Assembly: GCA_030428355.1 (NCBI GenBank)
Contig: JAUIBL010000014.1
Coordinates: 1 to 64,000 of the forward strand
Length of the DNA: 64,000 nt
Direction of reading: 5' to 3'
Source of the DNA: Alphaproteobacteria bacterium
Lineage (GTDB): Bacteria; Pseudomonadota; Alphaproteobacteria; Rhodobacterales; Rhodobacteraceae
Positions 12,400 through 49,998 of the stretch are shown piece by piece. Each line of letters opens with the position of its first letter. The stretch's first letter is position 1. Under the pieces are notes generated by a model. The model searched no databases, was not told the origin of the DNA, and saw nothing but the letters and a program-made list of their open reading frames with translations. Made by a program: the position numbers and the translations under genes.

Positions 12400-14952
12400 G
12401 TGACCCGATTGATCCTGTCATTCTTCGGAGCCATCTTCACCCTTGTCACCATGGGAATGATGATGGTGGCCCTTGGTGTGGGTGGCATCTTCTGGATGTA
12501 TGGCCGCGATCTGCCCAGCCACGAGAGCCTTGCGCAGTACACGCCGCCGACAATCAGCCGCATCTATTCGCGCGAAGGCCGGATCATCGACGAATTCGCG
12601 CAGGAACGCCGCCTGTTCACACCGGCGAACGAGATCCCCGATCTGGTCAAGCAGGCGTTCATTTCGGCGGAAGACAAGAACTTCTACACGCATCAGGGAT
12701 ATGACCTGCGCGGCATCGCAGCAGCCGCCGTTGACGCCGTGGCGTCCGGCGGTCGCGATGTGCGCGGCGCGTCCACCATCACCCAGCAGGTGATGAAGAA
12801 CTTTCTGCTGTCGGGGGATCGTCGGGTCGAGCGCAAGATCAAGGAAATCATCCTGGCTTCCCGGATCGAAGAGACGCTGAGCAAGGAAAAGATCCTCGAA
12901 CTCTACATGAACGAGATTTTCCTCGGGCAGAATTCCTACGGCGTCACGGCCGCCGCGCAGACCTATTTCAACAAGTCACTTGTCGAACTGGCCCCGCATG
13001 AGGCCGCCACATTGGCCTCGATGCCCAAAGCGCCTTCGGAATTCCATCCCGTACGCCGCAAGGACAGGCTGCTGGCACGGCGCAATTTCGTTCTGAAAGA
13101 GATGTACGAGAACGGCTATCTTGACCGGGCGACCTACGAGTCCGAGGTCGCGATGCCGTTGCGGTCGGTTCAGAATGGCGATTATGAACCGTTCCGCGAT
13201 GCCCTGCCGCCGCGCAACTACTTCACAGATGAAATCCGCCGCCAGTTGAGCGAGGATTTCGGCGAAGGCGAATTCTTCTCAGGAGGCTTCAGTGTCCGGG
13301 CCACGCTTGACCCGGACTTGCAGGTCGAAGCCGAAGATGCGCTGCAGCGCGCGCTGGAAAGCTACGACCGGTCCCAAGGTGTCTGGCGCGGCACTGGGCT
13401 GACGATCCCGGCGGATCAATTGACCAGCACCGACGCATGGCGCGAGGCTCTGTCCGCAGTCAGCATCGCCCGCGACATCCGGCTGGAGAACCCGTGGTAT
13501 CCCGCCGTCGTTCTCGAGGTCGGCACCAATGACGCACGGATCGGGATCGAGGGTGTTCCGGATGATGAGGACGGTCACTGGATTCCGGCCAATGACGTGC
13601 AATGGGCGCGCAAGCGCAACCCGGATGGATCGCTGGGACGAAAGGGTCAGGTTGCGGGTGACCTGCTAGAGGTGGGTGACGTGGTGCATGTCCGGCGTAT
13701 GACCTCGGACAGCGATGGCAGCTTTATCCGCTGGACCTTGCGGCAGGTGCCGGAAGTGCAGGGCGCGTTCATGGCGATGGACGTCAACACCGGTCGTGTG
13801 ATCGCGATGCAGGGCGGCTTCAGCTACCAGCATTCGGTGTTCAACCGTGCGACCCAGGCGCAGCGGCAGCCGGGCTCCAGCTTCAAACCCTTTGTCTTTG
13901 CCGCCGCGCTGGACAGTGGCTATTCGCCCGCGACCATCGTGGTCGACGCCCCGATCGAGATCAACACGCCCCAAGGCATCTGGCGGCCGCAGAACGCGTC
14001 CAACAAGTTCTACGGCCCCACACCCCTGCGCACGGGGATCGAACAGTCGCGGAACCTGATGACCATCCGTTTGGCCCAGGAGGTCGGGATGGACGTGGTT
14101 GCGAGCTATGCCGAGAAGTTCGGTGTCTACGATGACATGGGGCGTGTTCTGGCCAATTCTCTCGGCGCGGATGAAACCACGCTTTACAAGATGGTGGCGG
14201 CCTATGCGATGTTCGCCAATGGCGGCGAACGGGTCGAGCCGACGTTGGTGGACCGGGTGCAGGATCGCTACGGCAACACCGTCTACCGTCATGATCAACG
14301 CGTTTGCCAGGATTGTACGCTGGCCAGTCTGCAGCCAGGACGTGGGCCGACCGTGACCAGCGACCGGGAGCGCGTGATGAACGCGGTCACCGCCTATCAG
14401 TTGACTTCGATGATGGAAGGCGTTGTCGAGCGCGGAACCGCGCGCAGCACCGTGAACCTTCCGGTGCCGACAGCCGGGAAAACCGGCACGACGAACGATG
14501 CCAAGGATGTCTGGTTCGTGGGCTTCACGTCGAACATCGTGGCTGGTTGCTACATCGGCTATGACCAACCGCGCAGCCTTGGCCGTGGGGCGTCGGGCGG
14601 CGGCATGTGTGGCCCGGTGTTCAACTCCTTCATGATGAAGGCGGTCGAGAAATACGGCGGCAGCGCGTTCCGGCCACCGGAAAGCTGCCAGTTCATCAAG
14701 ATCGACCGCAACACCGGCGCGCGCCTCTCGGACAGCGCAAGCGGTGACAACGTGGTGGCGGAGTGTTTCCGCGAAGGCGAAGAGCCGATCTTCGGCATCC
14801 AGTTCGATGGTGGCTTTGCCATGGGATCGAATTTCGAGCTTTATAACTCGAGCGGTCAGCCCAGCAAACAGGTCACCACATCCAGTGGCGGGACCGCCAT
14901 CGTCGGTCCGAAAGCGTCGTTCGGAACACTCAGCTCGGGTGGACTCTACTGA
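12400..14952 (+). CDS. mrcA: penicillin-binding protein 1A (bifunctional transglycosylase/transpeptidase)
   Basis: The 850-residue protein has an N-terminal membrane anchor (about residues 5-35). A GT51 transglycosylase domain follows, with catalytic Glu in AEDKNFYTHQG near residue 90 and ASTITQQVMKN. An OB-like insert lies between the domains. The transpeptidase has S493-S-F-K496, SRN in EQSRNLM and KTGTTND. It polymerises and cross-links peptidoglycan. I chose GTG 12400, which has CAGAGG upstream; a TTG at 12346 is in frame but adds a polar tail. It follows the amidase gene by 113 bases. Confidence 0.95.
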   Translation: MTRLILSFFGAIFTLVTMGMMMVALGVGGIFWMYGRDLPSHESLAQYTPPTISRIYSREGRIIDEFAQERRLFTPANEIPDLVKQAFISAEDKNFYTHQGYDLRGIAAAAVDAVASGGRDVRGASTITQQVMKNFLLSGDRRVERKIKEIILASRIEETLSKEKILELYMNEIFLGQNSYGVTAAAQTYFNKSLVELAPHEAATLASMPKAPSEFHPVRRKDRLLARRNFVLKEMYENGYLDRATYESEVAMPLRSVQNGDYEPFRDALPPRNYFTDEIRRQLSEDFGEGEFFSGGFSVRATLDPDLQVEAEDALQRALESYDRSQGVWRGTGLTIPADQLTSTDAWREALSAVSIARDIRLENPWYPAVVLEVGTNDARIGIEGVPDDEDGHWIPANDVQWARKRNPDGSLGRKGQVAGDLLEVGDVVHVRRMTSDSDGSFIRWTLRQVPEVQGAFMAMDVNTGRVIAMQGGFSYQHSVFNRATQAQRQPGSSFKPFVFAAALDSGYSPATIVVDAPIEINTPQGIWRPQNASNKFYGPTPLRTGIEQSRNLMTIRLAQEVGMDVVASYAEKFGVYDDMGRVLANSLGADETTLYKMVAAYAMFANGGERVEPTLVDRVQDRYGNTVYRHDQRVCQDCTLASLQPGRGPTVTSDRERVMNAVTAYQLTSMMEGVVERGTARSTVNLPVPTAGKTGTTNDAKDVWFVGFTSNIVAGCYIGYDQPRSLGRGASGGGMCGPVFNSFMMKAVEKYGGSAFRPPESCQFIKIDRNTGARLSDSASGDNVVAECFREGEEPIFGIQFDGGFAMGSNFELYNSSGQPSKQVTTSSGGTAIVGPKASFGTLSSGGLY

Positions 14953-34411: not shown

Positions 34412-36027
34412 CCAAAACCCGCCTGACCCTCTACGACACAACTCTCCGCGACGGGCAGCAGACGCAGGGCGTGCAGTTCTCGACCCCCGAGAAACACCGC
34501 ATCGTCGAGGCGCTCGACGCGCTTGGCATCGACTATATCGAAGGTGGGTGGCCGGGGGCGAACCCGACCGACTCCGCGTTCTTCGACGAGGTCGGCCAGA
34601 CGAAAGCAACCGTCACCGCTTTCGGCATGACCAAACGCGCGGGCCGCTCGGCCGAGAATGACGACGTTCTGGCGGCGGTCATGAACGCGGGCACCAAGTC
34701 GGTGTGCCTTGTGGGCAAAACCCACGATTTCCACGTCACCGCCGCCCTTGGCATCACGCTTGAGGAAAACGTCGAAAACATCCGCGCCTCGGTCGCCCAT
34801 ATCGTGTCGCAGAAACGCGAGGCGCTGTTCGACGCCGAGCATTTCTTCGACGGCTACAAGGCCAATCCCGACTACGCGCTGACCTGCCTGCACGCCGCCT
34901 ATGACGCAGGCGCGCGCTGGATCGTGCTCTGTGACACCAATGGCGGCGCGTTGCCCAGCGAAGTGGGCCGGATCACCGAAGCGGTCATCGCCTCCGGCAT
35001 CCCCGGCACCCATTTGGGCATCCACACCCACAACGACACCGAAATGGCCGTCGCCACCACGCTTGCCGCCGTCGACGCAGGCGCGCGGCAGATTCAGGGC
35101 ACGCTGAACGGGCTGGGCGAACGCTGCGGTAACGCGAACCTGACCGCTCTGATCCCGACGCTGCTGCTCAAGGAGCCCTATGCCAGCACCTACGAGACAG
35201 GTGTGACGCTGGAAGCGCTCGAAGGCATGACGCGGATCAGCCGGATGCTGGACGAGATCCTCAACCGCGTGCCGCTCAAGCAATCGGCCTATGTCGGCTC
35301 CTCCGCTTTTGCGCACAAGGCCGGGCTGCACGCCAGCGCGATCCTCAAGAACCCGACGACCTATGAGCATGTCGACCCCGCACAGGTGGGCAACCGCCGG
35401 GTGATCCCGATGTCCAATCAGGCGGGACAATCCAACCTGCGCCGCCGTCTGGCGGAAGCCGGGATCGAAGTGCCGGACAAGGACCCGGCGCTGGCCCGCA
35501 TCCTCGACCGGATCAAAATGCGCGAGGCGGAAGGCTATTCCTACGACACCGCGCAGGCGAGTTTCGAGCTTTTGGCGCGGGATGAGTTGGGAATGCTGCC
35601 CGAATTCTTCGAAGTCAAACGCTACCGCGTGACGGTGGAACGGCGGAAGAACAAGTACAACAAGATGATCTCGCATTCCGAGGCAGTGGTTGTTGTCAAG
35701 GTGGATGGCGAAAAGAAACTGTCGGTCAGCGAGTCGATGGACGAGCTGGGCAATGACCGTGGTCCGGTGAACGCGCTTTCCAAGGCGCTGGCCAAGGATC
35801 TTGGCCCGTATCAGGCGATGATCGACGACATGCGTCTTGTCGACTTCAAGGTGCGCATCACCCAAGGCGGGACCGAGGCCGTGACCCGCGTCATCATCGA
35901 CAGCGAAGACGGGCAGGGGCGGCGTTGGTCCACCGTGGGTGTCAGCGCCAACATCATCGACGCGTCTTTCGAGGCGCTGCTGGATGCCGTGCGCTGGAAA
36001 CTGGTGCGGGACGCCGCCCCGGCATGA
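34408..36027 (+). CDS. cimA: citramalate synthase
   Basis: CimA condenses acetyl-CoA with pyruvate to (R)-citramalate, a threonine-independent entry to isoleucine. The 539-residue protein has the HMGL-like catalytic start [15 protein letters not shown], metal ligands in [13 protein letters not shown] and [12 protein letters not shown], and the C-terminal LeuA-type regulatory domain (about 400-530). The start overlaps the cysS stop. It complements the ilvB-ilvH operon in branched-chain amino acid synthesis. Confidence 0.92.
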
Positions 36028-44762: not shown

Positions 44763-49075
<4,313 letters not shown>

Positions 49076-49083
49076 CCACTTTT

Positions 49084-49108
49084 GTTCTCAAATGTTCTCA
49101 TAAAGTTC
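49084..49108. promoter_or_regulatory. LexA (SOS) box, alphaproteobacterial type
   Basis: GTTC-TCATAAA-GTTC (49094-49108) is a perfect match to the alphaproteobacterial LexA site GTTC-N7-GTTC. A third GTTC lies ten bases upstream of the first (49084-49087). The box is nine bases after the recG stop and 53 bases before the 44-codon gene, placing it over that gene's promoter. Confidence 0.85.
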
Positions 49109-49161
49109 TTTACATGGCGTCAAGGATATGAGAACAAAGAGGAAACAAGGAGGACGACACC

Positions 49162-49296
49162 ATGATGCACCGGATCAAAACCTCGCTTCACGCCGTCAAG
49201 GCCCAGACCAATGCGCCGCTTCTTCAGGATGCGCTTGGGGCTATGTCGTTGGTTGTGTTGCTGGTCGCGGCCCTGCATCTGCCGGTGCTTGTCTGA
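49162..49296 (+). CDS. 44-residue single-span membrane protein under LexA control
   Basis: ATG 49162 follows a strong AAGGAGG site at 49148-49154. The peptide has a basic, amphipathic N-terminus (MMHRIKTSLHAVKAQ), a polar middle and one hydrophobic segment at about residues 26-44 (GAMSLVVLLVAALHLPVLV), predicting N-in, C-out topology. It is preceded by a perfect LexA box and followed by an intrinsic terminator, so it is a single-gene SOS unit. Small membrane proteins induced by SOS, such as Caulobacter SidA, block division; a similar role here is inference, not sequence homology. Confidence 0.75.
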   Translation: MMHRIKTSLHAVKAQTNAPLLQDALGAMSLVVLLVAALHLPVLV

Positions 49297-49419
49297 CCTG
49301 TTGCCTTTTTCTGCCTGCGTGTTTTGCCTGACGGACCGCATCCTGTCCCAACCGATGCACCTGTCCCGGAAGGTTGCCTGCCTTCCTCGTCCCGATGGCC
49401 CCCAACGAACACGTTACTG

Positions 49420-49455
49420 ACCGCCGCCTTCAATCGAAGTGCGGCGGTTTTTTTA
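49420..49455 (+). terminator. terminator of the LexA-controlled small gene
   Basis: ACCGCCGC (49420-49427) pairs with GCGGCGGT (49441-49448), with a further CTTC/GAAG stem inside, followed by seven Ts. It lies 124 bases after the small gene's stop; I see no further reading frame of note in those 124 bases. Confidence 0.88.
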
Positions 49456-49477
49456 TCGGATGGTAAAATTTCGGAAA

Positions 49478-49930
49478 TCAGGCGCTTTGCGTTTCCGCAA
49501 GCTGGGCCACCGCATCGGATGCAGCTTCGAGTGTCAGAAGGATCGACGCATGCCGGTTCTTGAACGCCACTGCAGGACGCAGCACCTCCAGCCCGTCAAA
49601 CGGGGCCGACGGGGTGGGCCCGTCTTCCTTGAGCATGGAGCGCAATTCGTCGCGCGCGCGGGTGATCTGTTCAGGCGTGGTGCCAAGGATCGATGCGCCA
49701 ACGACCGAGGCCGCCGCCTGACCAAGAGCGCAGGCTTTCACGTCCTGCCCGTAGGCGCTGACCTGGCCATCCTCGAGCGTCAGGTCCACCGTCACTGTTG
49801 ACCCGCAGAGGGGTGAGCGTTTCTTGACTGTCGCCCCCGGCGCATCGAGCCGGGTGTGGTGCGGGATGTCCGCCGCCAGTTCGAGGATCCGGCCGGAATA
49901 GAGCTTGATGAGATCGGTATCGCCCGACAT
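49478..49930 (-). CDS. iron-sulfur cluster assembly scaffold-like protein (IscU/NifU N-terminal type)
   Basis: The 150-residue protein has cysteines in RSPLCGSTVTVDL and VKACALGQAAASV and the conserved start LIKLYSGRILELA, all typical of the SufU/IscU scaffold fold; the third cysteine position (C-terminal) appears to be absent, so its ability to hold a cluster is open. ATG 49930 has AAAGGGAAAG upstream. Divergent from hisI. Confidence 0.82.
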   Translation of the reverse strand: MSGDTDLIKLYSGRILELAADIPHHTRLDAPGATVKKRSPLCGSTVTVDLTLEDGQVSAYGQDVKACALGQAAASVVGASILGTTPEQITRARDELRSMLKEDGPTPSAPFDGLEVLRPAVAFKNRHASILLTLEAASDAVAQLAETQSA

Positions 49931-49998
49931 GGCTTTCCCTTTCGCGGTTCCCCTCATAAATAGGGGACCATCCGGCGGATGCAAAAAGGTTTTTTCCC

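Follow-up and report, generated by a model that had tools for sequence, protein, structure and literature searches.

What does a 44-codon open reading frame (ORF) preceded by a LexA box do in a member of the Rhodobacteraceae? The ORF belongs to a unit at positions 49084–49455 of a 64,000-nucleotide (nt) stretch of contig JAUIBL010000014.1 (the whole stretch is called the window below). Behind ligA and recG, this unit comprises an operator, TTTACA, a second LexA-like block in opposed orientation, the ribosome binding site AAGGAGG, the ORF and a 158-nt 3' region (Table 1). An earlier note, made from the sequence alone, proposed a division inhibitor resembling SidA of Caulobacter and placed the gene right after ligA-recG, a location borne out by the Pfam matches of both neighbors. 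We put the chances at about even that the gene encodes an SOS-induced, one-span membrane inhibitor of cell division of the Rhodobacter/Roseobacter group, SidA- or YneA-like in function, with a transcript that carries a second part made of RNA. Control by LexA is well supported, whereas inhibition of division is inferred.

The operator is compound. GTTC-N6-GTTC-N7-GTTC (49084–49108) is followed by TTTACA and then by an opposed GAAC-N7-(C)AAC block. The perfect GTTC-N7-GTTC box, the extra GTTC and the strong ribosome site described in the earlier note are all present, and the first two are conserved upstream of the ORF across 110 loci; the opposed block had been missed. These loci comprise a first set of 30 and 80 further ones, the latter mainly the better-scoring of 257 profile matches in the family (see below). 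A GTTC-N7-GTTC box lies within 300 nt upstream of the ORF in 110/110 loci, with both GTTC of box 1 invariant. The distance from the start of TTTACA to the opposed TGAGAACAAA is 19–21 nt in all of them and 20 nt in 102. The opposed block reads GAAC-N7-CAAC in 89% of relatives, with AAAC in place of CAAC here, and its layout matches that of the recA box (AGAACAAGAGGCGAACA) of the same genome.

Boxes of the form GAAC-N7-GAAC precede recA, lexA (GAACAACAGTAGAAC) and ImuA-like, ImuB-like and DnaE2-like genes in this genome (the ImuA-like assignment is an NCBIfam match below the family cut-off; the other two are a Y-family and an error-prone polymerase, respectively). Genome-wide, there are 12 occurrences of TGTTC-N7-GTTCT and one of its reverse; genes were identified at some of the 12. 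Since the conserved boxes of the small gene match those before recA, lexA and the imuA-like, imuB-like and dnaE2-like genes, its membership in the LexA (SOS) regulon is a strong inference from sequence. Significance is attached to the box because it is conserved, not because of its count in the window: four GTTC-N7-GTTC matches were found where 2.0 are expected, and 16 of 100 shuffles reach that number, which is not significant alone. The three other matches are on the minus strand (12898–12912, 14041–14055 and 35638–35652), and the total of four is within chance. The ImuA-like, ImuB-like and DnaE2-like genes are located on separate contigs (C50, C56 and C64; loci L036, L038 and L039) of the draft genome, each with its own GAAC-N7-GAAC box, and the mutagenesis cassette thus seems split rather than forming one operon. 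In some alphaproteobacteria, recG itself appears to be LexA-regulated according to a 2012 study (PMC3323433); the excerpts of that study mention no gene behind recG. Statements on published systems here and below refer to excerpts of the cited papers.

The gene is widespread among relatives. A search with the single protein matched 32 of 61 genomes at E≤1, including its own genome and all 16 congeners (16/16), and a 17-row profile matched 257 of 295 sampled family genomes at E≤0.01, its own included. The same profile matched only six of 385 genomes in a class-wide sample. Five of these are family members (own genome included), while the sixth match (E 0.004) is partial and within a 495-residue frame, and is therefore probably due to chance. 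Judging from these searches, the protein type is apparently restricted to the Rhodobacter/Roseobacter family. The nearest named proteins, among the matches listed, are from Marivita, which points to this genus as the probable source of the window. RecG is encoded immediately upstream in 109/110 loci (30/30 of the first set and 79/80 of the further ones). Thus, the conservation of frame and box and the synteny after recG, which the earlier note had suggested looking for, are both found.

The exact pattern of the compound promoter was present in at least 118 stretches in genomes of named species. Of these, 117 follow recG and 116 carry the protein; all three exceptions are located at locus ends. 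By taxonomy label, 69 of these stretches belong to Roseobacteraceae and 41 to Paracoccaceae, and eight are without a family label. As the pattern was derived from these loci, the result demonstrates specificity and not independent discovery. Of 22 family genomes with an absent or weak profile match, 18 yielded the C-terminus of RecG, and 13 of these 18 recG loci have a diverged small hydrophobic ORF with a LexA-type box behind recG. Four of the 13 frames are already counted in the 257, leaving nine additional carriers. One AT-rich family genome (G130, locus L265) has kept the LexA-type box behind recG in front of an ORF that lacks the DAxG/LHLP signature described below, and is a doubtful case among the 13. 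In a survey of lexA, all 13 gene-carrying genomes (G130 among them) have lexA. Taken at sequence level, the gene is most likely a core SOS gene of the family. A phage or plasmid origin was considered and rejected; the protein itself is unmatched in phages, and that of one relative is unmatched in plasmids.

The 44-codon frame described in the earlier note was confirmed, and its single membrane span is supported by the hydropathy of 110 proteins and by a single predicted helix. The ORF is under clear purifying selection, with a dN/dS of 0.144 over 120 pairs from 16 genomes of the genus, its own included (pS 0.388, pN 0.075). Prodigal accepts genes of 90 nt or more and the ORF has 135 nt, which makes it doubtful that the frame is too short for standard gene callers, as had been stated. 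The proteins of the 110 loci are 36–44 residues long, 40 being the commonest length (starts were picked by script). Hydropathy averages 2.26 in the best hydrophobic window of 18 residues. This single span is C-terminal, with an average of ∼1.1 residues beyond the hydrophobic window and no net charge there in 109/110 proteins. Residues M1, D23, G26, L38 and P41 are invariant in the 17-row alignment, defining the signature QDAxGA...LHLP. AlphaFold2, run on the single sequence, predicts one helix (residues 5–43; pLDDT ∼90 over residues 21–40; pTM 0.38).

How such a protein might act is suggested by known inhibitors. SidA, DidA and YneA, all induced by DNA damage, are small proteins with one membrane span whose target is FtsW or FtsN (PMC4211646, PMC13396833), and models published in 2026, to which their authors assign low confidence, suggest that several inhibitors converge on transmembrane helix 7 of FtsW (PMC13396833). 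Conserved residues at both ends of a bare span fit an action of the FtsW/FtsN type by analogy, the tie to FtsW itself being a guess. A SidA-like checkpoint role is plausible. In the proposed mechanism, RecA-triggered cleavage of LexA would open the tightly repressed promoter, and the peptide would insert in the membrane with its N-terminus inside. Its conserved face, formed by DAxG at the inner and LHLP at the outer end of the span, would then bind a membrane protein of the divisome, most likely FtsW/FtsI, and the bound peptide would keep septal synthesis switched off while the damage is being repaired. The second functional part would be the 3' RNA, whose C-rich loops are predicted to be exposed; it would act as a regulator of its own message or as a released small RNA (sRNA).

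Several observations weigh against this proposal. Five of the 18 recG loci from poorly matching genomes have neither the gene nor the box in the 600 nt read. Of nine genomes that lack the gene or gave no recG match, six have lexA, two (G024 and G069) do not, and one (G099) has it below the cut-off; the idea that gene loss tracks lexA loss is thus weak at best. The constant position behind recG may merely reflect a shared chromosome backbone. The net charge on the N-terminal side is positive in only 56/110 proteins, which leaves the membrane orientation uncertain. Searches of Pfam, NCBIfam and PDB gave no match to a family, and the sole PHROG match, obtained with a relative's protein, has an E of 0.16; without a named family, the divisome target is a guess. 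Finally, an SOS membrane peptide need not inhibit division; TisB is not known to do so. The same holds for DinQ, as far as the excerpts describe it.

The 3' region turned out to be more than the terminator with seven Ts recognized in the earlier note. The C/G-rich stem and the seven T, ending at 49454, are present, and the entire segment 49297–49454 is a conserved folded RNA. This terminator escaped a simple scan for terminators, in which the sole stem reported was at the end of recG (49066–49080). The stem is present in the predicted fold, and 97.8% of the aligned terminator-helix cells pair. Folds of single sequences display a long outer helix, a hairpin like GCATC-CTGTCCCAAC-GATGC, more hairpins and the C/G-rich terminator. 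Short motifs recur in these untranslated regions (UTRs): TCTGCC is found within 40 nt of the stop codon in 76/110 loci, CTGTCCC at least once in 89/110 and TGCCTG in 97/110.

Compensatory changes support the fold. Twenty loci with clear structure were selected and aligned with MAFFT, without fitting to a model; 90.5% of the cells in this alignment are paired, compared to 31–46% when the structure is slid along the alignment. Both sides change in 16 of 31 pairs, giving 40 such cells versus 10.4 in shuffled alignments (0/500 as high) and 7–17 in slid ones. Predicted folds of the same sequences served to define the structure (the pairs of hairpin H1, of CCGG and of the remaining outer helix were placed manually, guided by single-sequence folds, and then counted), which favors the percentage paired much more than the compensatory counts. 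RNAalifold recovered the terminator only from 45 sequences; from 20 sequences it recovered six outer-helix pairs, the terminator, a three-pair helix and a small helix with the loop TGTC that replaces H1. A covariance model was built from 20 of 99 loci, the other 11 of the 110 being near-identical congeners that were omitted. It matches 97/99 loci, and 77/79 of those outside model building; the lowest-scoring matches are short and owe their score to the terminator. In the resulting model-fitted alignment of 97 rows, 92.9% of the cells pair and 29/31 pairs change on both sides, with 428 both-side-changed cells versus 103 in shuffled and 79–107 in slid alignments. GU cells outnumber AC cells (114 vs 40), indicating that it is the coding strand that folds. 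Compensatory change has thus preserved the helices, and on this comparative evidence the 3' UTR counts as a conserved structured RNA.

The RNA in the window scores 70.6 bits (E 1.4e-14). The 41 whole genomes searched comprise 25 of the family and 16 others. A single strong copy (≥57 bits) accompanies the small gene in 22 of the 25, and one more (G017) has a weak copy there (27 bits); stray matches in the family reach 25 bits, and the 16 others score 22 bits at best. At the diverged recG loci, the RNA is clear in some (L259, L255, L249 and L253) and was not found at L251, L264 and L265 (E≤1). The model is also without a match at L109 and L110. The protein thus persists without the RNA in a few lineages; no RNA without the protein was seen in the 41 genomes or at the diverged recG loci. 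Rfam has no match in 48900–49700 at E≤1. The features are summarized in Table 1.

Table 1. Positions of the features of the unit and of its upstream neighbors in the window
Feature	Position	Strand	Support
ligA, NAD-dependent DNA ligase, neighbor	44841..46988	+	Pfam DNA_ligase_aden, E 8e-94
recG open frame, true start probably inside; conserved upstream neighbor	46550..49075	+	Pfam DEAD, RecG_wedge, RecG_dom3_C
Extra GTTC half-site, N6 before the next	49084..49087	+	Four columns 92–98% conserved, 110 loci
LexA box 1, GTTCTCATAAAGTTC, GTTC-N7-GTTC	49094..49108	+	Upstream of the ORF in 110/110 loci
TTTACA, probable -35 element	49109..49114	+	Six columns 74–100% conserved, 110 loci
Opposed LexA-like block, GAAC-N7-AAAC	49132..49146	-	GAAC and last AAC invariant, 110 loci
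Ribosome binding site, AAGGAGG	49147..49153	+	Sequence
44-residue single-span membrane protein, MMHRIKTSLHAVKAQTNAPLLQDALGAMSLVVLLVAALHLPVLV	49162..49296	+	dN/dS 0.144; 257/295 family genomes
3' UTR, conserved structured RNA	49297..49454	+	Covariance-model match at 49304–49454
Outer helix, 5' strand (partner 49407–49414)	49317..49324	+	Minimum-energy fold; outer-helix pairs covary
Hairpin H1, GCATC - CTGTCCCAACC - GATGC	49338..49358	+	Predicted fold; 5/5 pairs change both sides, 97 loci
Second hairpin, loop TGCCT	49368..49386	+	Predicted fold; outside the covariance model
Terminator hairpin, CCGCCGCC...GCGGCGG and seven T	49420..49454	+	Predicted fold; 97.8% of cells paired

Downstream of the unit, a convergent neighbor (49478–49984, minus strand) has a weak match to NifU_N (E 0.0065, below the cut-off). 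This neighbor follows the small gene at 23 of the 30 loci in the first set.

The structured 3' RNA raises a second, RNA-based reading of the locus. The RNA could even be the main actor, an SOS-induced sRNA that is released from the message or co-terminal with it and pairs with mRNAs through its C-rich loops, the peptide being secondary. We regard this as unlikely. It would account for the strong covariation and for an RNA that ends in a terminator, and predicted ensembles leave the C-rich motifs largely unpaired (68–84%, compared to 40% for the body of the RNA and 48% for all C in the body; CTGTCCC 78%, TGCCTC 84%, the post-stop TTCTGCC 80% and CTGCCTGTCC 71%). There are precedents, too. DinR of Klebsiella is located at the 3' end of the LexA-controlled dinI message, a placement like that of the RNA described here, and pairs with ftsZ (PMC10907235). 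Pos19 of Rhodobacter sphaeroides is a coding sRNA, a short transcript induced by stress in a related bacterium, and its small ORF is translated (PMC5036791). However, DinR has another host gene in another bacterial group, and Pos19 is controlled by RpoE and confined to R. sphaeroides strains (PMC5036791). Moreover, the protein is under clear selection and is kept at the five loci where the RNA was not found, and the folding energy without the terminator is only ∼2 standard deviations below that of mononucleotide shuffles (mean z −1.9, 27 UTRs).

Pairing with ftsZ, in particular, is not above controls here. The loops CUGCCUGU and CUGUCC fit a conserved block before the ftsZ start at 15 loci, and for three motifs the ftsZ start region ranks in the best 4–14% (medians) of 734 background start regions, the start having been located in 14 of the 15 loci. 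The post-stop motif has a median of 4.4%; yet its reverse reaches 7.4%, and the reversed motif of the second hairpin (H2) reaches 2.2%. Because reversed motifs do as well, composition would explain the fit, and ftsZ is not supported as the RNA target. The motif CAGG(C/T)GGA lies a few bases before the ftsZ start codon at 15/15 loci (L266–L280) and mostly continues as CAGA. The dnaA start regions have no consistent site at 13 of 14 full-length dnaA loci, for which starts were assigned by a simple rule and some are perhaps wrong; the G240 locus, which begins at a contig end, was omitted.

A broader scheme combines both products. A family-wide, dual-function SOS transcript under LexA control, with a single-span peptide acting on the divisome and a structured 3' sRNA acting on other mRNAs, would arrest the cell twice and represent the missing SOS division checkpoint of the Rhodobacterales; we consider it a tentative possibility, on the doubtful side.

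A small hydrophobic peptide with a structured RNA on the same transcript also calls to mind TisB and DinQ of E. coli, which are SOS-induced small membrane peptides with RNA-based control (for DinQ, according to excerpts). The product could accordingly be a membrane-depolarizing SOS toxin that slows growth without blocking the divisome, its translation being limited by the folded RNA, and the compound LexA operator would fit the tight repression of such a toxin. This seems improbable to us. The position-specific conservation of DAxG and LHLP exceeds, in our judgement, what a generic pore peptide needs. In contrast to TisB and DinQ, no antisense RNA is indicated here: the RNA is on the same strand, behind the ORF, and the excess of GU over AC cells favors the coding strand, which speaks against an antisense antitoxin. 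Own pairs of leader and 3' UTR score better than swapped ones in 30/60 cases (the first 60 usable loci), giving no sign of cis pairing.

A further alternative is an SOS membrane protein with another task, regulating a membrane protease, the release of gene transfer agents or envelope stress. The SOS response is tied to gene transfer agents in the Rhodobacter/Roseobacter group (PMC6473078), while the immediate neighbors here, ligA and recG, are repair genes, and no link to protease, gene transfer agent or envelope systems turned up, no search having been aimed at one. We consider this explanation very unlikely.

The inhibitor of division that we propose would most closely resemble SidA of Caulobacter crescentus, another tiny, LexA-controlled inner-membrane protein of an alphaproteobacterium, with 29 residues (PMC4211646). 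The two are compared by description and not by descent; the profile has no convincing match outside the family among the 385 class genomes. The protein described here is also longer, lies behind recG and is encoded with a structured 3' RNA. YneA of B. subtilis, SosA of S. aureus and DidA of Caulobacter are comparable as damage-induced small membrane inhibitors of late division steps (PMC13396833, PMC4211646). However, YneA needs a LysM domain outside the membrane (PMC13396833), where the protein here has nearly nothing beyond its span, and DidA is not SOS-controlled (PMC4211646).

Among the matches listed, open-access titles and the first parts of abstracts contain no description of the gene or the RNA, and an earlier notice as an unnamed LexA target is possible; likewise, no SOS division inhibitor of the Rhodobacter/Roseobacter group is named in the excerpts of the literature searched. 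The locus apparently encodes an SOS-type single-span membrane peptide of a new, family-restricted type together with an undescribed structured RNA. The covarying 3' RNA has no counterpart in Rfam and accompanies a single SOS gene, which makes its partner worth looking for. If the gene does encode the inhibitor, it would add a peptide type to the class of SidA, YneA and SosA that converges on septal synthesis, and the damage checkpoint of the Rhodobacter/Roseobacter group would become directly testable in tractable strains.
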